A DNA stretch of 64,000 nucleotides from contig JAISTX010000003.1 in assembly GCA_031272365.1 (NCBI GenBank), positions 1 through 64,000 of the forward strand, in the 5' to 3' direction. The notes under the pieces were generated by a model. That model had not been told where the DNA came from, did no database searches, and saw only the letters and a program-made list of their open reading frames with translations. This document shows positions 741 through 61,807 of this stretch, in pieces. Made by a program: the position numbers and the translations under genes. Position 1 is the stretch's first letter. Every line of letters starts with the position of its first letter. The stretch comes from Eubacteriales Family XIII. Incertae Sedis bacterium (GTDB lineage Bacteria; Bacillota; Clostridia; Peptostreptococcales; Anaerovoracaceae).

Positions 741-830
741 ACTCTCTCATCGCTCCCACTCGCGTTCCCTTGTTTTTTCTGCGGCTGCGCCTCGCGCCTT
801 TGGATTGGAGCATGGATTCCGGGTCAAGCC

Positions 831-952
831 CGGAATGACATCAGTAGTGGGCAAAGCCCGGAATGACAGCGGTGGTGGGCAAACACCGGAATGACATCAG
901 TAGTGAATCAACACCGGAATGACACCAGTAGTGGATCAACACCGGAATGACA
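831..952 (+). repeat. 28-bp tandem repeat, four copies plus a partial fifth
   Basis: A 28-base unit beginning CGGAATGACA repeats at 831, 859, 887 and 915, with a partial copy at 943. Copies differ at a few positions (for example TCAGTAGTGG against GCGGTGGTGG), so they are diverged rather than freshly slipped. There are no unique spacers, so this is not CRISPR. The block lies between the convergent ends of the GNAT gene and the radical SAM gene. I see no gene in the rest of 741-977. Confidence 0.85.
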
Positions 953-2369: not shown

Positions 2370-2755
2370 TTCCACCGGCATTTCAGCACGAAGACGTAGT
2401 CGGCGCAGACGACCGTCACCCAGTGGATCACGATGAACAGCGTGAACTTCTCCACGATGCCGGCCGGGTCGCGCAGCACCATCAGGAAGAACGCGGCGAT
2501 CGCCACGCACGTCAGGATCAGGGAGACGACCAGGCAGTCGACCAGGATGGCGGTGTGGTACTCGTCGAACGGCCTTTTGCGCCTCACGAGCAGGACCGCG
2601 AGCACCGCCGTGGCCGCCAGGAGCGCGGCCGCGAGCCAGCCCTGCCAGCCGCGCTCCAGGCGCACGGCCGCCGCGATGAAAACGATCCCGTAGAAAGCCG
2701 AGTACACGCTGATGCAGACGGCGTTGAACGCCGGGTTTCTGAGCAGACCTCTCAT
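2366..2755 (-). CDS. Small four-helix membrane protein (129 aa)
   Basis: The protein begins MRGLLRNPAFNAVCISVY and carries four hydrophobic stretches: about residues 8-30, 37-57, 70-95 and 105-125. A basic loop RRKRPFDEY sits between the second and third. There is no signal for secretion or a catalytic motif, so I call it an integral membrane protein of unknown function. Its ATG overlaps the stop of the XRE regulator gene (ATGA at 2752-2755) and its own stop overlaps the start of the radical SAM gene (2366-2369), so the three are one translationally coupled operon. Small XRE regulators followed by a membrane protein of this size are a common Bacillota pair, often autoregulated. Confidence 0.75.
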   Translation of the reverse strand: MRGLLRNPAFNAVCISVYSAFYGIVFIAAAVRLERGWQGWLAAALLAATAVLAVLLVRRKRPFDEYHTAILVDCLVVSLILTCVAIAAFFLMVLRDPAGIVEKFTLFIVIHWVTVVCADYVFVLKCRWK

Positions 2756-2958
2756 TTCCTGTCCTCCTCCGCGAACACGAACAGCTCCTCGATGGGCAGC
2801 CCGAACAGCCTCCCAAGGTCGTAGGCGAGCCAAATGGACGGGTCAAACTTCCCCGTCTCGATGGCGTTGATGGCCTGCCGGGAAACGCCCACCATCTCGC
2901 CGAGCTCCTTCTGGGTGAGGCCGCGGGCCTCCCGCAATTCACGAACCAGGTTCCGCAT
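2752..2958 (-). CDS. Small XRE-family HTH regulator (68 aa)
   Basis: This is a minimal Cro/C1-type helix-turn-helix protein that is almost all DNA-binding domain. The HTH is LTQKELGEMVGVSRQAINAIETGKFDPS, at about residues 14-41, and a short C-terminal segment LFGLPIEELFVF completes the five-helix fold. It closely resembles the YozG/YgzD type of short regulator that accompanies membrane proteins. It is the first gene of a three-gene minus-strand operon. Two 17-base direct repeats overlap its promoter (2981-2997 and 3023-3039), which makes autorepression likely. The start ATG at 2958 is preceded by the sequence GGAGAAGCG on the coding strand. Confidence 0.88.
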   Translation of the reverse strand: MRNLVRELREARGLTQKELGEMVGVSRQAINAIETGKFDPSIWLAYDLGRLFGLPIEELFVFAEEDRK

Positions 2959-2980
2959 CGCTTCTCCATCATTCTTTGTG

Positions 2981-3039
2981 TGTCAGGTTTACCTTACATA
3001 CAATAACATACGCTGCCGGCCGTGTCAAGTAAACCTTAC
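2981..3039 (-). promoter_or_regulatory. Promoter and paired operators of the XRE operon
   Basis: Read on the minus strand, a -35 box TTGACA (3028-3023) and a -10 box TATTGT (3005-3000) are separated by exactly 17 bases. Two 17-base direct repeats, GTAAGGTTTACTTGACA (3039-3023) and GTAAGGTAAACCTGACA (2997-2981), agree at 14 positions and start 42 bases apart. One covers the -35 box and the other the expected transcription start. This arrangement suits binding of the small XRE protein as an autorepressor. The binding itself is inferred. Confidence 0.72.
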
Positions 3040-3075
3040 TCGCCCTGATGCTTTCGCCTGCCCGGAGACGCCCGC

Positions 3076-3218
3076 GTGGGCAAATTTCTCTTAAATGAGT
3101 GATTGCCGGCCGCGCACGGGTTTGAATTTGTCAATTTTTCCACACTTCATATAATGAACAAGACGATTTCAGAGGGATTCAAGGAGGGCGTCCACTCATT
3201 TAAGAGAAATTTGCCCAC
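3076..3218. repeat. Foldback element with perfect 26-bp inverted ends
   Basis: GTGGGCAAATTTCTCTTAAA... at 3076-3101 recurs as its exact reverse complement at 3193-3218, enclosing 91 bases without a gene. The 143-bp size, perfect terminal inverted repeats and lack of coding capacity are those of a MITE-like element. No obvious target-site duplication is visible beside it. I did not see a second copy in the window. It contains a sigma-A-type promoter pointing at the downstream lipoprotein gene. Confidence 0.75.
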
Positions 3219-3236
3219 CGCGAATCATGGTACAAT
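3128..3236 (+). promoter_or_regulatory. Two candidate promoters for the SH3 lipoprotein
   Basis: Inside the foldback element a -35 TTGTCA (3128-3133) and a perfect -10 TATAAT (3150-3155) are 16 bases apart. Just past the right inverted repeat lies an extended -10, TGGTACAAT (3228-3236), whose upstream half is the element's own end. Both point at the lipoprotein gene starting at 3266. Transcription from the first would pass through the right arm of the element. Confidence 0.6.
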
Positions 3237-3265
3237 CATAGGGCGAGACGAAAGGAGAACCTGTG

Positions 3266-4183
3266 ATGAAAAAATGGGGTTTTTGGCGAGTTGCATCTAT
3301 CGGCCTCGGGGCGGTGTGCAGCATCATGCTGGCGCTCGGCCTTGCGGGCTGCGGCGGCGGGGCGGGCCCGGACGACGGCGGCAGCGCGTCGGCTGCGCCT
3401 GTCGAAGTGGAAGCGCCCGAAGAGGCCCCCGCCGAAATGCCCGTGCCGGAGGCCATCCCGGCAGAGGCGCTGGCGGGCGATTGGGTCGGCATTATTGGCG
3501 AAACCGGCATAGAACCGACCGTCCTCATTTCGCGGTACGACCTCTCGTTTGCGGAGGACGGCAGCTGCGTTTTCGGCTATTTTTACCAAATTCCGGCGAT
3601 TGACTATCTGACGTTCCCGCATTTTTTCGGCACCTACGCCTGGAGCCCGGACGCGGAAAGCACGCTGGTGCTGGACGTGCACCTCGGCGATTTCAACTTC
3701 ATCGAGGATCCGTCCGATGAGCTGAACGGGGGCTACGCCGAATGGTACGACCCCGGCGCGGACGCGCCAGAGGAAACGCTCAGCCTGACGTTTTCGGTGT
3801 TCCTCGACGACATCGGCGCACTGCACATCGAGTTCCCGGAGGATGTGCAGACCTCGGCCGGGGAAACCGTAGCGCACGCCGACATGCAAGCGATGCTGTT
3901 TCAGCAGGCCGGGGATGGCGCCGGTGATTTGATCGCCGGGCAGGAATGGAAGGGGACCGCCCCGGACGTACCGGTGTACCCGGCAGCCGCCTACACCACG
4001 ACCGACGTGCTCAACCTGCGGGAGCACCCCTACTCCACCTCGGACTACGGGATCATCAAGGAGCTCCCGGAGGGGACGGCGGTGCAAGAATACGGCGCGT
4101 ACGCGAACAACCCCGACTGGGCTTTCGTCCTCGTCGAGGACGGCTCCATCGGCTGGGTGAGCAAGGATTTTCTGGCGTCTTAG
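3266..4183 (+). CDS. Lipoprotein with C-terminal SH3b domain (305 aa)
   Basis: The N-terminus is a lipoprotein signal: MKKWGFWR, a hydrophobic stretch, then the lipobox LAGC, so the protein is anchored on the outer face of the membrane by a lipidated cysteine. A low-complexity Gly/Ala/Glu/Pro linker follows, then a central domain of about 150 residues with no recognised family (ALAGDWVGIIGETG...). The C-terminal 65 residues (TTDVLNLREHPYSTSDYGIIKELPEGTAV ... GSIGWVSKDFL) are a bacterial SH3 domain, a module that usually binds peptidoglycan. I chose ATG at 3266 rather than GTG at 3263 because AAAGGAG is then eight bases upstream. It stands alone, just ahead of a separately translated OYE gene, behind a promoter carried by the foldback element. 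Confidence 0.82.
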   Translation: MKKWGFWRVASIGLGAVCSIMLALGLAGCGGGAGPDDGGSASAAPVEVEAPEEAPAEMPVPEAIPAEALAGDWVGIIGETGIEPTVLISRYDLSFAEDGSCVFGYFYQIPAIDYLTFPHFFGTYAWSPDAESTLVLDVHLGDFNFIEDPSDELNGGYAEWYDPGADAPEETLSLTFSVFLDDIGALHIEFPEDVQTSAGETVAHADMQAMLFQQAGDGAGDLIAGQEWKGTAPDVPVYPAAAYTTTDVLNLREHPYSTSDYGIIKELPEGTAVQEYGAYANNPDWAFVLVEDGSIGWVSKDFLAS

Positions 4184-4217: not shown

Positions 4218-5240
4218 ATGTTATTCGAAAAATTCTCACTGCGCGGGGTGGAGTTCAAGAACCGGATTTTCATGGCGCCGATGTGCATGTATATGGCCGG
4301 CGAGGACGCGGCTGCCACCGACTGGCACTACATCCACTACGCGACGCGGGCGCAGGGCGGCGCGGCGCTCGTCATGCTCGAGGCGATCGCCGTCTCGCCG
4401 GAGGGGCGCATCACCTCGCAGGACCTGGGGCTCTACGACGAGGCGCACCTGCCGGGGCTGGCGCGGATCGTGGACGAGATCCACCGGATGGGCGCGAAGG
4501 CGGGCGTCCAGCTCGCGCATGCCGGGCGGAAGGGGCTGTCGAACGTCCCGGCCATCTACGCGCCGAGCGCGATCGCCTACGACGACGAGTCGCCCACGCC
4601 GGTAGCGGCGGACGAGGCGTACATCGAAAAGACGGTGGGGGACTTCCGCGCAGCGGCGGAGCGGGCCGCGCGGGTCGGCTTCGACCTCGCGCAGCTGCAT
4701 GGGGCGCACGGTTATTTCCAGGGCGAGTGGCTTTCGCCCCTGACGAACAAGCGCAGCGACGCCTACGGCGGCCCGGCGGAGAACCGCGTCCGCGTGCTGG
4801 GCGCGACCCTCGAGGCCATCCGGTCCGTGTGGCCGGACGAAAAGCCGCTCGGCGTGCGCGTCTCGGCGGAGGAGTACGAGGAGGGCGGCCTGCACCCCGA
4901 GGACGTCGCCGCGCTCCTGAACCTCGTGAAGGGGAAGGGGCTCGACTACGTCGACGTGAGCTCGGGCGGCGTCACGCCGTTCGTCCCGAAGGCGTCCCCC
5001 GGCTACCAGATCCCGTACGCGAAGACGGTCAAGGATCTGACGGACCTGCCCGTCGCGGGCGGCGGCCTCATCACGACACCGCAGGCAGCGGAGGACGTCG
5101 TCGCGTCCGGCAGCGCGGACTGCGTCTACCTCGGCCGGGAGCTGCTGCGCAACCCCTACTTCCCGCTCTGCGCGTCCGTCGCGCTCGGCGTCGACGTGCC
5201 TTGGCCCACGGCCTACGAGCGGGCCAAGCCGCGGCGGTGA
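4218..5240 (+). CDS. namA: NADPH dehydrogenase, Old Yellow Enzyme family (340 aa)
   Basis: A full-length FMN-dependent ene-reductase of the YqjM/NamA class. The N-terminal KNRIFMAPMCMY carries the cysteine (residue 23) and tyrosine (25) characteristic of the thermophilic-like OYE subgroup. The active-site pair lies in LHGAHGYFQGEWLSPLTNKRSDAYGG, and VAGGGLITTPQAAEDVV plus CVYLGRELLRNPYF form the FMN phosphate-binding end of the TIM barrel. Such enzymes reduce the C=C bond of alpha,beta-unsaturated carbonyls with NADPH in the cytoplasm. The start is supported by GGAAGGAGAG ten bases upstream. The gene lies 34 bases after the SH3 lipoprotein and may be co-transcribed; no functional link is evident. 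Confidence 0.9.
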   Translation: MLFEKFSLRGVEFKNRIFMAPMCMYMAGEDAAATDWHYIHYATRAQGGAALVMLEAIAVSPEGRITSQDLGLYDEAHLPGLARIVDEIHRMGAKAGVQLAHAGRKGLSNVPAIYAPSAIAYDDESPTPVAADEAYIEKTVGDFRAAAERAARVGFDLAQLHGAHGYFQGEWLSPLTNKRSDAYGGPAENRVRVLGATLEAIRSVWPDEKPLGVRVSAEEYEEGGLHPEDVAALLNLVKGKGLDYVDVSSGGVTPFVPKASPGYQIPYAKTVKDLTDLPVAGGGLITTPQAAEDVVASGSADCVYLGRELLRNPYFPLCASVALGVDVPWPTAYERAKPRR

Positions 5241-5290
5241 TTTGCAATTTGGGCCCCGGGGCCGGGCCGGCAGCAGCGTAGGTCGGCAGG

Positions 5291-5315
5291 AAAACGAGTT
5301 GGTACAGCGTTTGTA
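5291..5315 (+). repeat. Dispersed repeat, left copy (AAAACGAGTT.GTACAGCGTTT)
   Basis: AAAACGAGTTGGTACAGCGT at 5291, continuing TTGTA, matches AAAACGAGTTCGTACAGCGT at 7867, continuing TTATA. The two copies are in the same orientation about 2.58 kb apart and bracket the permease pseudogene, the Rpn gene and the duplicated permease tail. The rest of 5241-5355 holds only a TAGGAGGAG ribosome binding site for the pseudogene. Confidence 0.65.
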
Positions 5316-5355
5316 CTCTGCGTATCAGGGACGCTCTTGGGTGCTGTAGGAGGAG

Positions 5356-6701
5356 TTGGAGATAGATAACGGATTTTCGCAGCCTGTGTACGGGGCGCCG
5401 CCTGCGGCGCCGAGGGAAAGCAAGTGGTGGCACATCGCCGTGCTGATTGCGCTCGGGGCGGTCTTCCTGGTCGGCGCCCTGACGAGCATCTATTTCTTGA
5501 CGCCGAACAGCCTCGGGGCTATCTTTTTCAATACTGCTATTGTCGGCATCCTTGCCATCGGGCAGATGCTCGTGATGGTGCAGGGGGGGGTTTGACCTTT
5601 CGATCTTCGGCATTCTGGCGTTCTCGGCTGTTTTCTGCGCGCACCTGACGGCGAACCTCGGATTCCCGCCTGTGATTGCGGTGCAGCTGACCCTCGCCAT
5701 CGCGGCAGGGAGCGGCATAGCCAACGGCGCGCTCATCGCGCACGCCAAACTGCCGCCGCTGCTCTCTTCACTGATATTCTATACCGGCTGGACGGTGGCG
5801 GCATGGCTGCTGTCAGGCGGCGAGATGATTCAAGGGCTTCCGGAAAGCTTCACGCGCTTCTACGAGCCTATTCCCTTCATCGTTTTCACCGCCGTGCTCA
5901 TCTGCGCCGTGCTCATGCTCCATGTACCCAAGGCCGGCCGCGCGCTTTTCCCAGAAGGATACAGGGCGGCGGCTGAAGGTTCACACATTTTTGGCAAACT
6001 CCAAATGGGTCTAGTATCTCTTTTCTGCAGTTTGCGCTGCTACGGTGGGATTGCTGATGATGAACCGCCTGGGTACCGCCTTCGCATGGTTAGGAGATGG
6101 TTATAGGTTAGATGTGCTGCTGGCCGTCGTGCTCGGCGGCGTCAGCCTGCGCGGCGGAAGGGGGAAGGTATGGGGTGTCATCATCGGCGCTTTCCTTGTG
6201 GCGTCCTCATTCAACATGATTGACCTGCTCGGTATCTATTCCGATTTCCCAGAGTCCGTCTTCTGGGGCATACTGATCGGCTTGCTGATTGCCGCGCATT
6301 TCCGCTTCGGCCATCCGGGCGAAAAGCAGGATACCCCTGTCGATGAACTCTCCTCTGCGGCGCGGATGACGCGGGTCGCGCTCTTCGCGCTCGCCGGGCT
6401 CGGCATCTGGCTTTTTATTCGGCAAACACTGCTGTACCCCGAAGCTTTGTTCGCTTACCTCCCCGAAGGCATCCTGATTCCGGCCTTCTTCATCGTGCTG
6501 GCCGCGATGAACCAGCAACGGGCCTTCGCCCCGGAGCTGACGACACTTGCGGCGATCACTTATGGCGGTTTTCTGCCGTCTCGCGTGTACGGATTCACCC
6601 CGCAATCTTTCATCTCGCCCTCCCTCTGGATCTACGTCGCCCTCGTCTTCCTGCTCATCTTCGCGGAGAAGCGGGCGACGGCTGCACCGCCGCGCAGATA
6701 G
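5356..6701 (+). pseudogene. Broken sugar ABC transporter permease
   Basis: Three consecutive frames together give a ribose-type (RbsC/BPD_transp_2) permease. Frame one (TTG at 5356) holds a cytoplasmic N-terminus and the first helices up to GQMLVMVQGG. A run of eight G (5583-5590) then shifts the frame: with six G it would read on into FDLSIFGILAFSAVF, the match to the usual GGIDLSVG motif. That second frame runs through helices to about 5970, after which sequence is lost and the frame changes again near 6045, where MNRLGTAFAWLGDGYRLDVLLAVVLGGVSLRGGRG resumes the family's C-terminal half. An extra hydrophobic C-terminus ends at 6701. There is no ATPase or binding-protein gene beside it, which fits decay. 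A sequencing error in the G run cannot explain the second break. Confidence 0.82.
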
Positions 6702-20216: not shown

Positions 20217-21737
20217 ATGGGATTGCCGCTGACATTTCAGAGTATTTGCCCGGTTTGCGGGGTGCCTGTGGAGGCTTCGTATGTGCGGGACGGCGGGGCG
20301 GTGTTCGTTGAAAAGGCCTGCGCTGCGCATGGCTGCTTCCGCGCGCTGGCTTCCGAGGACGCGGACGCGTTTTTCCGGTGGATGGAACATGACTCCGTGA
20401 ACGTGCCGCCGCGCGTCTTCGTGACGGAGGGGGCTTGCGGGGCGTTTGCTTCCGGCACTGCCAACACCGAATGCCCCTGGCATTGCGGGGTCTGCAACAA
20501 CCATTTGATGACGGCGTGCTGCGTGCTGCTGAATGTGACGGGCCGGTGCAACCAGCGCTGCCCGTATTGTTTTGCGAACGCGGGCGCTGGCGGGGGCGCT
20601 TCCGGGGGCGCGGCGGGGGCGGACTCCGCGGGCGACCCGCCTCTGCAGGACATCGAACGCTGGCTCGACCGGCTCATCGAACTGGGGGAGGAGCGCAAGT
20701 TCAACATCCAGCTGAACGGCGGCGAGCCGACGGTGCGGGACGACCTGCCGGAGATCGTGCGGCTGTGCAAGGCCAAAGGCTTCGAGTACGTGCAGCTCAA
20801 CACGAACGGCCGCCGGCTGGCAGGGGAAAGTAGGGGCGAACTGCGTTCGCCCGGAAGAAGTAGGGGCGAACTGCGTTCGCCCGCCTCAGCAGGCCTGGCC
20901 TACGCAAAAGAGCTGAAGGCGGCGGGGCTGTCGACGGTCTTCCTGCAGTTCGACGGCGTCAGCGACGGCGTCTACGAGGCGCTCCGCGGGGAAAAATTGT
21001 TCGAGCTCAAGCGGCGAGCCATCGAGAGCTGCGGCGCGGCGGGGCTGCCGGTCACGCTTGTGCCGACGGTGACGAAGCACGTCAATTTGGCGGAGGTCGG
21101 GCAGATCATCGGGTTCATGCTCGAGCACGTGCGCACGGTCAAGGGCGTGCATTTCCAGCCGGCGAGCTTTTTCGGGCGGCAGCCGTCGGAGCCGGGCGTG
21201 GGCGGCGACTTCCCGGAGCGCGTGACGATGTTTGCGCTGATGGAGGAGATCGAGCGGCAGACGGGCGGGCGGATCCCCGCGCGGGCGCTCGCGCCGATCA
21301 GCACGGGGCACCCGCTGTGCTGCTTCTGCGCGACGTTCTTGAAGGAGCCGGGCGGCGGCGTGACGCCTTTGGCGAAGCCGGAGGGGCCGGAAGGGCGGAG
21401 CTGCTGCTGCGGGCCGGAGGACCCGCTCGAGATCGTGCGGCGCGACCGGGATTTCGTGCTGAACAAATGGGACAGCGGGGGCGGCGCGGACGGCGAGCTG
21501 CCCGGCGCGGACGGGGCGCAGGGCGCGGACATATCGGAGCCCATGTCGTTTGACGACGCCCTCGTGTACATCCGGAGCAACCTGTTCACCATCTCGGGCA
21601 TGTCCTTCATGGACGCAACGAACCTCGACGCCGAGCGGCTGCGGCGCTGCCGCGTGCAGGTCTTCACGGGGGATGGGCGGCTGGTGCCGTTCTGCGGGTA
21701 TTATACGTTGGAAGGGAGCGGGTTTCCATGTCCATGA
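20217..21737 (+). CDS. trsS: Radical SAM protein resembling TrsS (506 aa)
   Basis: The N-terminus has a CPVCG-type zinc/redox motif, then a cysteine cluster TECPWHCGVCNNH, and the radical SAM signature CNQRCPYCF that holds the [4Fe-4S] cluster. NGGEPTVRDDLPEIVRLCKAKGF is the usual SAM-binding strand. Further cysteines (CCFCATF, SCCCGPED, and a terminal VPFCGYYTLEGSGFPCP) suggest extra metal or sulfur chemistry. From memory this matches the radical SAM (seleno)protein TrsS family seen in Desulfovibrio and Clostridia next to a methyltransferase, a C-GCAxxG-C-C protein and a CoA-ligase-like protein, as here. The reaction is unknown. ATG at 20217 is preferred over TTG at 20205. An in-frame palindromic repeat (20829-20883) interrupts the chain after NTNGRRLAG. 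Confidence 0.8.
   Translation: MGLPLTFQSICPVCGVPVEASYVRDGGAVFVEKACAAHGCFRALASEDADAFFRWMEHDSVNVPPRVFVTEGACGAFASGTANTECPWHCGVCNNHLMTACCVLLNVTGRCNQRCPYCFANAGAGGGASGGAAGADSAGDPPLQDIERWLDRLIELGEERKFNIQLNGGEPTVRDDLPEIVRLCKAKGFEYVQLNTNGRRLAGESRGELRSPGRSRGELRSPASAGLAYAKELKAAGLSTVFLQFDGVSDGVYEALRGEKLFELKRRAIESCGAAGLPVTLVPTVTKHVNLAEVGQIIGFMLEHVRTVKGVHFQPASFFGRQPSEPGVGGDFPERVTMFALMEEIERQTGGRIPARALAPISTGHPLCCFCATFLKEPGGGVTPLAKPEGPEGRSCCCGPEDPLEIVRRDRDFVLNKWDSGGGADGELPGADGAQGADISEPMSFDDALVYIRSNLFTISGMSFMDATNLDAERLRRCRVQVFTGDGRLVPFCGYYTLEGSGFPCP
20829..20883 (+). repeat. In-frame tandem palindromic repeat inside the radical SAM gene
   Basis: A 30-base unit starting AGTAGGGGCGAACTGCGTTC occurs twice in a row (20829 and 20859, the second lacking its last five bases). 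Each unit contains the hairpin GGGCGAAC-TGC-GTTCGCCC. It is read in frame as SRGELRSPG twice and adds about 18 residues without breaking the protein. Very similar GTAGGGGCGA... palindromes are dispersed intergenic repeats in many genomes, so this looks like a repeat that landed in a coding region. Confidence 0.82.
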
Positions 21738-58838: not shown

Positions 58839-61807
58839 ACAAGAAATACAAGAGCTTCATTGACCGTTATGTCTACAACGACGAGCTGAGCTTCGACGCG
58901 CGGGTGTTCAACCTGATCTGCCTCGTCGGCATCGCGTCTTTGCTCGTGTCCGTCGTCGGCCATGTGATTGAACGGTCCAACACCGAGCTCATGGTGCTCA
59001 AGGTCGTCATGGTGGGATCCAACGTCCTGCTGTTCTTCCTCGGCAACAGCTTCAAGCTCTACCGGGCCGGGCGCGTCATCGCGATCGTCGGGTTCTCCTA
59101 CGTCATGATCCCGCTGCTCTTCTTCATGAACGGCGGGGCGGAGGGCGGCATCGCGGCCTATTTCGTGCTGGCCCTCATCCTCATCGCGCTGCTCGCGCAC
59201 GGGCGCGCGTTCTGGGCCTTCCTCTGCGGGAACATCGCGGTCATCGTCTTCTGCTACGTCGTCGACATGAAATACCCGCGGTGGATCGTGCCGCTGAACG
59301 CGTTCCAGCACTACGCGGACAACATCCTCTCCATCCTCGTGACCGTCATGTTCATCGGGCTGATCATCCGCGGGCTGTCCGAGCTGTTCCGGCGCGAGCA
59401 GGCGAAGGCGGAGGCCGCGAGCCGCGCGAAGAGCGATTTCCTCGCGCAGATGAGCCACGAGATGCGGACGCCGATGAACGTGATCATCGGGATTTCGAAG
59501 ATCCTGTCCACCGAGCACCGCATCGAGAAGCACCAGGACGGCATGAAGAAAATCGAAACGGCGTCCTCGCACCTGCTCGGCGTCATCAACGACATCCTCG
59601 ACATGAGCAAGATCGAGGCGAACAAGCTGGAGCTCTTCCAGGAGCCGTTCTCCTGGCAGGAGATGCTGGGCAGCGCGGCGGCCATCCTGCAGTACACGGC
59701 GGAGGAGAAAAACCTGGAATTCGTGGCGGAGAGCGACCCGTCCATCCCGGACAGCCTCGTCGGCGACCGGCAGCGCATCGCGCAGGTCGTCACGAACCTC
59801 CTCTCCAACGCGGTCAAATTCACGCCGGCGGGCGGCAGCGTCTATATGTCCGCGACGCACGAAGGCGTCGAGGAAGGGCGCCACCGCATCCGCGTCGCCG
59901 TGGCGGACACGGGCATCGGCATCTCGGAAGAGCAGATGCCCAGGCTGTTCCACTCCTTCGAGCAGGCGGACAACAGCACGACGCGCCGGTACGGCGGCAC
60001 GGGGCTCGGCCTGGCGATCTCCAAAAACATCGTGGAGATGATGGACGGGTGGATCGGCGTCTCGTCGGAGCCCGGGGAAGGGTCCACGTTCACGTTTGAG
60101 ATCTTGCTGCCGGAGGAGGGAGCCGCAGCCGCCGAGGCGGTGGCGGCCGTGGCCCCGGTAAGGACGAAAAAAAAGGCGGCGCCCGCAACAGCGGCAGCGG
60201 CGGCGGCGGCCGTGGCCCCGGCAATGACGCGAAAAGAGGCCGCAGCCGCGAGGAAGCAAGCGGCGGCCGCGAAGAAAAAGGCTGCGGCGGAAGCGAAGAA
60301 AGAAGCCGCGGCGGCAAAGAAGGCGGCAGCGGAAGCAAAGCGGGAGGAGGCTGCGGCGGCGAAGCGGGAAGCCGCAGCCGCAGCGGAAGCGCAAAAGAAA
60401 GCGGAGGCGGAAGCGAAGCGGGAAGCCGCAGCAGCGGCGGAAGCGCAGAAGAAAGCGGAGGCGGAAGCAAAGCGGGAAGCCGCAGCGGCGGCGGAAGCGC
60501 AGAAGAAAGCGGAGGCGGAAGCGAAGCGGGAAGCCGCAGCAGCGGCGGAAGCGCAAAAGAAAGCAGAGGCGGAAGCGAAGCGGGAAGCCGCAGCCGCAGC
60601 GGAAGCGCAGAAAAAAGCGGAGGCGGAAGCGAAGCGGAAGGCTGCGGCAGATGCGGCGGAGGCCCCCATAGCGGAGGCCCCGGCGGCAGCAAAGGCGGCG
60701 TCAAAAACAACGACCATGCTCGAAGATCTGGCAGCGGCGGCGGCGGCAGAAGCGGCCGCGGGCGCCCCGGAGGCCACGGCCCCGGCGGTGGGCGCTCCGC
60801 AAGAGGCGGCAGAAGCCCCGGCGGCGGCACCAGACATTCCGCAAGAAGCCCGGGCGGGCGCCCCCGTGGACGCAGCGACGGAAACTGCGGCGGCGGGCAC
60901 CCCCCCGCAAGAAGCGGCGGCGGAGCCCCTCCAGCCCGCGCCGATGCCGAAGAAAAAGCCCCCCGCGAAGTCCGCGAGCAAGACCCTGCGGAACACGACG
61001 GGCAAGTCGGGCGCCGGCGCCGCGCGGGGAAGGACCCAGGGCAAGGCGCAAGGAAGGCCCCCGGCGCAGGGGACGGCCCAGGCGCGTCCGCGAGGGAAGG
61101 GCCAGGGGAAGCCCGCCGGAACCCCGGCGGTGAGGCCCACGACAAGACCCGCGACGAGGCCTGCCGTGCGGCCGACGGGGAAACCCGCGCCGAAAGATGC
61201 GGGGAGGGCCAGGCGGAGGCCCGCCGGCGCCGCGCCGGCGCCGCCCGTGACGGCACCCGTGGCGCCTGTGACGCCCGTGGCAGCCACACCGCCCGTAGCA
61301 CCCGCACCGCCCGTAGCACCGGCACCACCCACACCGCCCGTGGCGACACCCATGACGCCTGTGGCAATGCCCACGACGACCCGCCCGGCGGCCGCGGCAG
61401 GCGGCCTGCCCGATTTCACGGGCTGCACGGTGCTCATCGCCGAAGACGTGGACATCAACCGCGAGATCATCACGACGTTGCTCGAGCCGACCGGCGCCGC
61501 CATGGACACCGCCGTCAACGGCAGGGAGGCCGTCGAGAAATTTTTCGAGAAATGCGTCGCCGGGAACGGCTACGACATGATCCTCATGGACATCCAGATG
61601 CCCGAGATGGACGGCTACGAGGCGACGAAGCGCATCCGCGAGCTCGGCACGTCCTGCTCCGGCACCGTGCCCATCGTCGCGATGACCGCCAACGTCTTCA
61701 AGGAGGACATCGACAAAGCGCTCGAATCCGGCATGAACGACCACCTCGGCAAGCCCATCGTCTTCGAGGACGTCCTCGCCAAGATGAAAAAACACATGCG
61801 GCGGTGA
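58835..61807 (+). CDS. Hybrid histidine kinase with repeat-built linker (990 aa)
   Basis: A membrane sensor with about six transmembrane segments between residues 24 and 182, no extracellular domain of size, and then a kinase: HisKA with the phospho-acceptor His208 in MSHEMRTPMN, and HATPase with NLLSNAVKF, VADTGIGIS and RYGGTGLGLAISKNIV, ending about residue 425. A linker of some 430 residues follows. Its first half is Ala/Lys/Glu-rich, with five 18-residue repeats (REAAAAAEAQKKAEAEAK) at about 509-599. Its second half is Ala/Pro/Arg-rich. A C-terminal receiver domain (VLIAEDVDINREI ... MDIQMPEMDG, probable Asp919, and AMTANVFKED) closes the protein. It would autophosphorylate and pass phosphate to its receiver. 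The ATG overlaps the gltX stop (ATGA). The signal and any further partner are unknown. Confidence 0.9.
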   Translation: MNKKYKSFIDRYVYNDELSFDARVFNLICLVGIASLLVSVVGHVIERSNTELMVLKVVMVGSNVLLFFLGNSFKLYRAGRVIAIVGFSYVMIPLLFFMNGGAEGGIAAYFVLALILIALLAHGRAFWAFLCGNIAVIVFCYVVDMKYPRWIVPLNAFQHYADNILSILVTVMFIGLIIRGLSELFRREQAKAEAASRAKSDFLAQMSHEMRTPMNVIIGISKILSTEHRIEKHQDGMKKIETASSHLLGVINDILDMSKIEANKLELFQEPFSWQEMLGSAAAILQYTAEEKNLEFVAESDPSIPDSLVGDRQRIAQVVTNLLSNAVKFTPAGGSVYMSATHEGVEEGRHRIRVAVADTGIGISEEQMPRLFHSFEQADNSTTRRYGGTGLGLAISKNIVEMMDGWIGVSSEPGEGSTFTFEILLPEEGAAAAEAVAAVAPVRTKKKAAPATAAAAAAAVAPAMTRKEAAAARKQAAAAKKKAAAEAKKEAAAAKKAAAEAKREEAAAAKREAAAAAEAQKKAEAEAKREAAAAAEAQKKAEAEAKREAAAAAEAQKKAEAEAKREAAAAAEAQKKAEAEAKREAAAAAEAQKKAEAEAKRKAAADAAEAPIAEAPAAAKAASKTTTMLEDLAAAAAAEAAAGAPEATAPAVGAPQEAAEAPAAAPDIPQEARAGAPVDAATETAAAGTPPQEAAAEPLQPAPMPKKKPPAKSASKTLRNTTGKSGAGAARGRTQGKAQGRPPAQGTAQARPRGKGQGKPAGTPAVRPTTRPATRPAVRPTGKPAPKDAGRARRRPAGAAPAPPVTAPVAPVTPVAATPPVAPAPPVAPAPPTPPVATPMTPVAMPTTTRPAAAAGGLPDFTGCTVLIAEDVDINREIITTLLEPTGAAMDTAVNGREAVEKFFEKCVAGNGYDMILMDIQMPEMDGYEATKRIRELGTSCSGTVPIVAMTANVFKEDIDKALESGMNDHLGKPIVFEDVLAKMKKHMRR
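60362..60631 (+). repeat. 54-bp tandem repeat (five copies) within the kinase gene
   Basis: Units begin AAGCGGGAAGCCGCAGC at 60362, 60416, 60470, 60524 and 60578, and differ only at a few third positions (GCAGCC against GCGGCG). The frame is kept throughout. Each encodes 18 residues of a probably helical Ala/Lys/Glu stretch. The near identity suggests recent expansion by slippage or unequal exchange. Confidence 0.9.

Follow-up and report, generated by a model that had tools for sequence, protein, structure and literature searches.

In invertons, a promoter lies between inverted repeats. The Correia elements (NEMIS) of Neisseria, as described in two papers (PMC2649163, PMC10969869), carry a 26-bp repeat, come in discrete size types (the shortest 69-73 bp, the longest 153-157 bp), and are restricted to their genus; many copies lie 5' of genes, single repeats occur too, and the elements can create sigma-70 promoters and are reported to invert. 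The excerpted part of the latter source also describes promoter-like sequences in several bacterial MITEs, and target duplications that fade in older MITE copies (PMC10969869).

Here, we consider a short inverted-repeat element upstream of a lipoprotein gene in the window, by which we mean the whole analyzed stretch of 64 kb from a Family XIII bacterium (the host). We conclude that this element, C10, is likely a non-autonomous MITE-like mobile repeat, to date encountered in just two genomes of one genus, and that it probably placed an extra promoter before the lipoprotein gene. Its foldback with perfect 26-bp ends, as originally predicted, was borne out in full: the arms agree at 26/26 positions and enclose 143 bp, and the predicted folding energy is -67.1 kcal/mol, against a mean of -37.5 for shuffled sequences (z -8.3; equaled by 0/200 shuffles). 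Like bacterial MITEs, the copy is an A+T-rich, stable foldback, and the size and ends of the family (120-143 bp, 26-bp ends) lie within the MITE range (<500 bp, inverted ends of about 4 to 30 bp). With up to three mismatches allowed, the two C10 arms are the sole matches to the end repeat in the window (0.00 expected from 100 shuffles), and Rfam gave no match at the gathering threshold over positions 2700-3700. A resemblance of TTGTCCACA to what we take to be a DnaA box was dropped as a reading. Elsewhere in the window (60260-60663), repeated stretches overlap and are ~83% alike, suggesting a tandem repeat.

Features at the window site, in window positions
Feature	Position	Strand	Remarks
MITE-like element	3076..3218	+	143 bp; 43% G+C vs 64% G+C in the window
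Left 26-bp terminal inverted repeat	3076..3101	+	
Right 26-bp terminal inverted repeat	3193..3218	-	
Possible decayed internal end-repeat copy	3127..3153	+	51 bp from left end; low score
Promoter-like site inside element	3128..3155	+	TTGTCA (3128-3133), 16 bp, TATAAT (3150-3155); 11/12
Extended -10 TGGTACAAT	3228..3236	+	Outside element, read from sequence; probably native promoter
Candidate target duplication CCGCG	3072..3076, partner 3218-3222	+	By eye; weak; not 5/5 in other copies inspected
Lipoprotein gene	3263..4183	+	Lipobox LAGC read from sequence; SH3-like C terminus; ATG at 3266
Divergent small HTH_3 regulator	2755..2958	-	E 1.3e-15
Promoter-like site of divergent regulator	3000..3028	-	TTGACA, 17 bp, TATTGT

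The lipoprotein gene has a likely ribosome site at 3251-3257, and the C terminus of its product matches SH3_3 with an E value of 1e-5 and 26 bits, just under the cut-off of 27. Relatives of the lipoprotein occur in 6/61 genomes, the host included, and even the best of them are distant, at 31% in the sister genome G001, 33% in G016, and 30% for a paralogue within the host.

The element belongs to a dispersed multicopy family with conserved ends, as is typical of bacterial MITEs, and the end repeats of its members measure 26-27 bp. With the C10 element as query, 22 matches were obtained in the host genome, an assembly of 2.92 Mb in 88 contigs that is 89% complete. We also searched for the end repeat with a 27-position sequence model, at an E-value limit of 1, in three genomes: the host; G001, a member of the same genus labeled Clostridiales Family XIII bacterium (84% complete); and G002, the remaining member of the genus. 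In each genome, the model scored 150 first-look candidates (out of 498, 267, and 527, respectively), so weak matches may be missing from the counts of at least 32 in the host and at least 15 in G001; among the 150 of 527 candidates scored in G002, there were 0 matches. The host matches comprise 27 in 12 complete elements, four single ends (C10:87552, C18:20308, C28:2570, and C7:16583), and one weak partial match (C62). Eight of the complete host elements are 142-143 bp long (C10, C13, C52, C39, C72a, C72b, C2, and C78) and four are 120-121 bp long (C9, C4, C18, and C55). G001 has seven complete elements of 121, 131, or 132 bp, plus one truncated by a contig end; its contigs C44 and C191 share 119 identical overlapping bases and were counted once, on the presumption that they represent the same copy. 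Gene contexts differ among copies, some of which overlap gene ends, and the ends are far better conserved than the interiors.

The family appears to be limited to the genus. A looser end-repeat pattern matched 2/296 family genomes, the host and G001, and found nothing in the third genome of the genus or in the 293 other family genomes; its reversed control gave 0 matches in the host and G001 and 1 in G008. A stricter pattern matched the host alone among 61 genomes. In a public genome collection whose answer may exclude the host, four stretches matched, all from the isolate Md513_bin127 (Clostridiales Family XIII bacterium), and an exact 22-base pattern had no match in the collection, which may leave the host out. 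One match in a viral contig of 38% G+C, lone and partnerless, was taken as chance. The original prediction had reserved the reading of a regulatory hairpin for a repeat that is unique and conserved in all relatives; this one is multicopy and varies between genomes of the genus.

Several side observations concern the surroundings of individual copies. At C13 and C52, the end repeat gives the neighboring predicted gene its stop codon and last residues (L019 3213-3231 and L020 3315-3337, respectively). On contig C10 of G001 (L073, contig positions 9943-10414), a 157-bp stretch that includes the left part of an element recurs 315 bp further on, 92% alike. Another interspersed repeat, at window positions 784-876, is 84-90% alike at C10:88177, C72:28775, and C78:3046, and these three copies are located close to end-repeat elements or a single end.

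The clearest sign of mobility is one two-sided empty site, which provides the presence/absence difference at orthologous sites expected of a MITE. On G001 contig C230, a DUF559-like gene (4587-5564) and a 2'-5' RNA ligase gene (5567-6148) lie 2 bp apart, whereas their host counterparts are separated by a 173-bp gap that contains the 120-bp C18 element. The ligase is recognized by Pfam in both genomes and DUF559 in the G001 protein only, the host counterpart of the latter being assigned through DNA similarity to the G001 gene. Three further candidates were not counted, namely C39 and C52, where gene order is broken or only one side is preserved, and C28 against G001 C191, which is one-sided. 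A search of G001 and G002 for the locus orthologous to the window site gave no match, an empty answer that by itself shows nothing. Flanking duplications, which had been proposed as a check, proved inconsistent among copies, the sole candidate being the CCGCG at C10, and no TA duplication is evident at the ends of the copies inspected.

The flanks also hold evidence against the MITE reading. C2 and C78 have 15/16 bases in common on one side and 13/16 on the other, with the same orientation relative to the shared flanks; C72a and C72b (94% alike) have 13/16 bases of the left flank in common and interiors of opposite orientation; and G001 C156e and C191 have 13/16 in common beside the element, in a 93% alignment that runs 25 bp into the flank. 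In these three closely related copy pairs, 12-25 bp of flank are shared, an outcome not expected of movement with precise cuts at the element ends. The flank sequences of C2 and C72 without an element were found at no exact place, and at eight places with one mismatch, in 191 kb of host sequence.

Movement of the family would rely on an unseen enzyme acting in trans. No autonomous element with the same ends occurs among the at least 32 repeat matches in the host (89% complete, 88 contigs), and no pair of these matches faces each other 0.8-5 kb apart. The outer ends of C230a and C230b in G001 do face each other, but they enclose the DUF559 and RNA ligase genes. An IstA/IstB element at C39 lacks these ends, and IS21 was rejected as a parent.

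The alternatives that follow overlap in part with the MITE reading. The first, which we consider unlikely, is that the feature is a regulatory hairpin fixed in place or an array of protein-binding sites, in which 27-bp repeats bind a host protein with whole-helical-turn spacing and the copies form a regulon. Consistent with such an array, all 19 complete elements fall into only three length classes (120/121, 131/132, and 142/143 bp) in ~11-bp steps, 11/19 of them have a clear third, internal repeat with a start-to-start distance of 41-42 or 51-53 bp between neighboring repeats, and single repeats occur; the eight 142/143-bp copies have no third repeat at the same threshold. However, each length class may represent a lineage of its own, in which case the 11-bp steps amount to few independent observations. 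The arms of an element also change together in part of the family. Among the 12 host copies, arms differ on average by 2.33 within and 4.55 between elements (permutation p 1e-4; 2.6 versus 4.6, p 3e-4, without C72b and C78), and the pooled 19 elements give 3.89 versus 5.96 (p 1.5e-4). In the eight 142/143-bp copies, changes affect both partners in 6/26 arm pairs (reached by 41/500 shuffles) and 93.8% of arm cells are paired (0/500 shuffles as high), counts that relatedness can inflate, although slid controls are much lower. The seven G001 copies show the reverse, with arms less alike inside one element than across elements (6.57 within versus 4.93 between, p 0.996). This, together with the empty site at C18, the differing gene contexts with some copies over gene ends, and the homologous interiors at unrelated loci, argues against a fixed array.

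A second possibility, to which we give a small chance, is a small mobile element of a new kind, with three copies of one 27-bp site on one helix face, whose enzyme would recognize the three-site array in place of two ends. A copying step through the hairpin would keep the arms complementary, some moves would take 12-25 bp of flank with them and turn the interior around, and the third site would become a promoter as it decays. The shared flanks and the three-repeat layout in any case raise a question about the moving enzyme.

Quite improbable, and compatible with the MITE reading, is an inverton, in which a recombinase would flip the segment bounded by the 26-bp repeats and so toggle the lipoprotein gene. 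The promoter does sit between identical inverted repeats, C72a and C72b have opposite interiors beside a left flank with 13/16 bases in common, and Correia elements are reported to invert in the excerpted account (PMC10969869). However, the 11/12 promoter is present in just 2/12 host copies, orientation is unchanged in C2 and C78 relative to their shared flanks, and the C72 match is confined to a single short stretch. The least likely reading of all is a REPIN-like element mobilized by a RAYT (REP-associated tyrosine transposase): the repeat starts with GTGG, is weakly palindromic (68.2% of cells paired in 22 repeats versus 63.8% when shuffled, 2/500 as high) with one pair changed on both sides, and occurs as inverted pairs and single repeats with no clear target duplication, but the sole Y1_Tnp match in the host (C12:31110) has no end repeat within the 3.2 kb examined and a different REP-like palindrome in its own reading frame, so that no cognate RAYT was found, and G001 (84% complete) has the elements and no Y1_Tnp match. 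This RAYT-like gene (L127 1306-1806, on host contig C12 from 30915) encodes 166 amino acids, has REP-like palindromes inside its reading frame at L127 1444 and 1591, and lies between genes that we take to be fmt-like and rsmB-like. A GTAG-tagged REP-like palindrome, GTAGGGGCGAACTGCGTTCGCCC, occurs as two close copies in the window (20830-20852 and 20860-20882) and also beside the C4 element.

Under the preferred reading of C10 as a mobile repeat, its arrival in front of the lipoprotein gene probably set an extra sigma-70 promoter ~110 bp before the start codon. The predicted TTGTCA-16-TATAAT aimed at the lipoprotein gene is present and matches 11/12 consensus positions, being one of two promoter-like sites in 2900-3400, where shuffles average 0.1; mononucleotide shuffles of the element reach at least 11/12 in 0.43% of 20000 cases (spacer 15-18, both strands counted). 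The right edge of the element was thought to abut an extended -10; this motif exists but the edge does not quite reach it, because 9 bp lie between. The idea that the element delivers a promoter holds as a matter of sequence for C10 and C13 only, and the second -10, just outside C10, is probably the native lipoprotein promoter, which would stay in place beside that of the element. We rate the chances that the C10-internal promoter is active as roughly even.

When all 19 elements were scanned together with as much as 40 bp of flank, ten sites reached at least 9/12; those of C10 and C13 match at 11/12 and each of the remaining eight at 9/12. The 11/12 promoter is absent from 10/12 host copies. 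Both 11/12 promoters point at a lipobox-bearing gene, that of C13 (lipobox read from sequence; no Pfam match) lying 143 bp past the element. The eight 142/143-bp copies align with a single indel: C10 has one base more than the others in the stretch separating the -35 from the -10, so its spacer measures 16 bp and not 15 bp. In C10 and C13, the sequence at the position of the third repeat can be read as a -35, followed after 15-16 bp by TATAAT, and it is plausible, though not proven, that this -35 is a decayed third repeat. By full-length score, offset 51 is the best interior position in C10 (-3.7 bits) and C13 (2.3 bits), and it falls to places 6 to 14 in the remaining six of the 142-bp class; the derivation is accordingly suggested for these two copies alone. 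Judged by the first 16 bases and averaged over the eight 142/143-bp copies, offset 51 comes first among 144 interior positions, whereas offset 82 beats it in the full-length average of the 142-bp class.

With its restriction to one genus, an empty site in a sister genome, and a plausible route from structural repeat to promoter, the family offers a natural test case for how mobile repeats rewire genes beyond the few pathogens studied. It shares with Correia elements a 26-bp repeat, length classes, genus restriction, and single repeats, a likeness in general description. It differs in insertion sites (TA or CA in Correia, none evident here), in the place of the promoter (at element ends in two described Correia promoters, internal in C10), and in the third repeat of 11/19 elements, a trait of the new family. 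QMITE1 and QMITE2 of Coxiella and other bacterial MITEs, in the excerpted account, are likewise short and multicopy with conserved inverted ends and variable interiors (PMC10969869), although a parent insertion sequence was not found for the new family. REPINs, and BIMEs as described in one source (PMC3733652), are similar in their inverted pairs of a ~25-bp repeat and lack of a clear target duplication, but the one RAYT-like host gene pairs with another palindrome. The C10 promoter lies between inverted repeats as in invertons, whereas the new family is dispersed and mostly without a strong promoter. No title about this repeat family appeared among those listed in our literature search, which is not proof of absence. 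Overall, we would class the repeats as a new family of MITEs whose mode of action resembles that of Correia elements.
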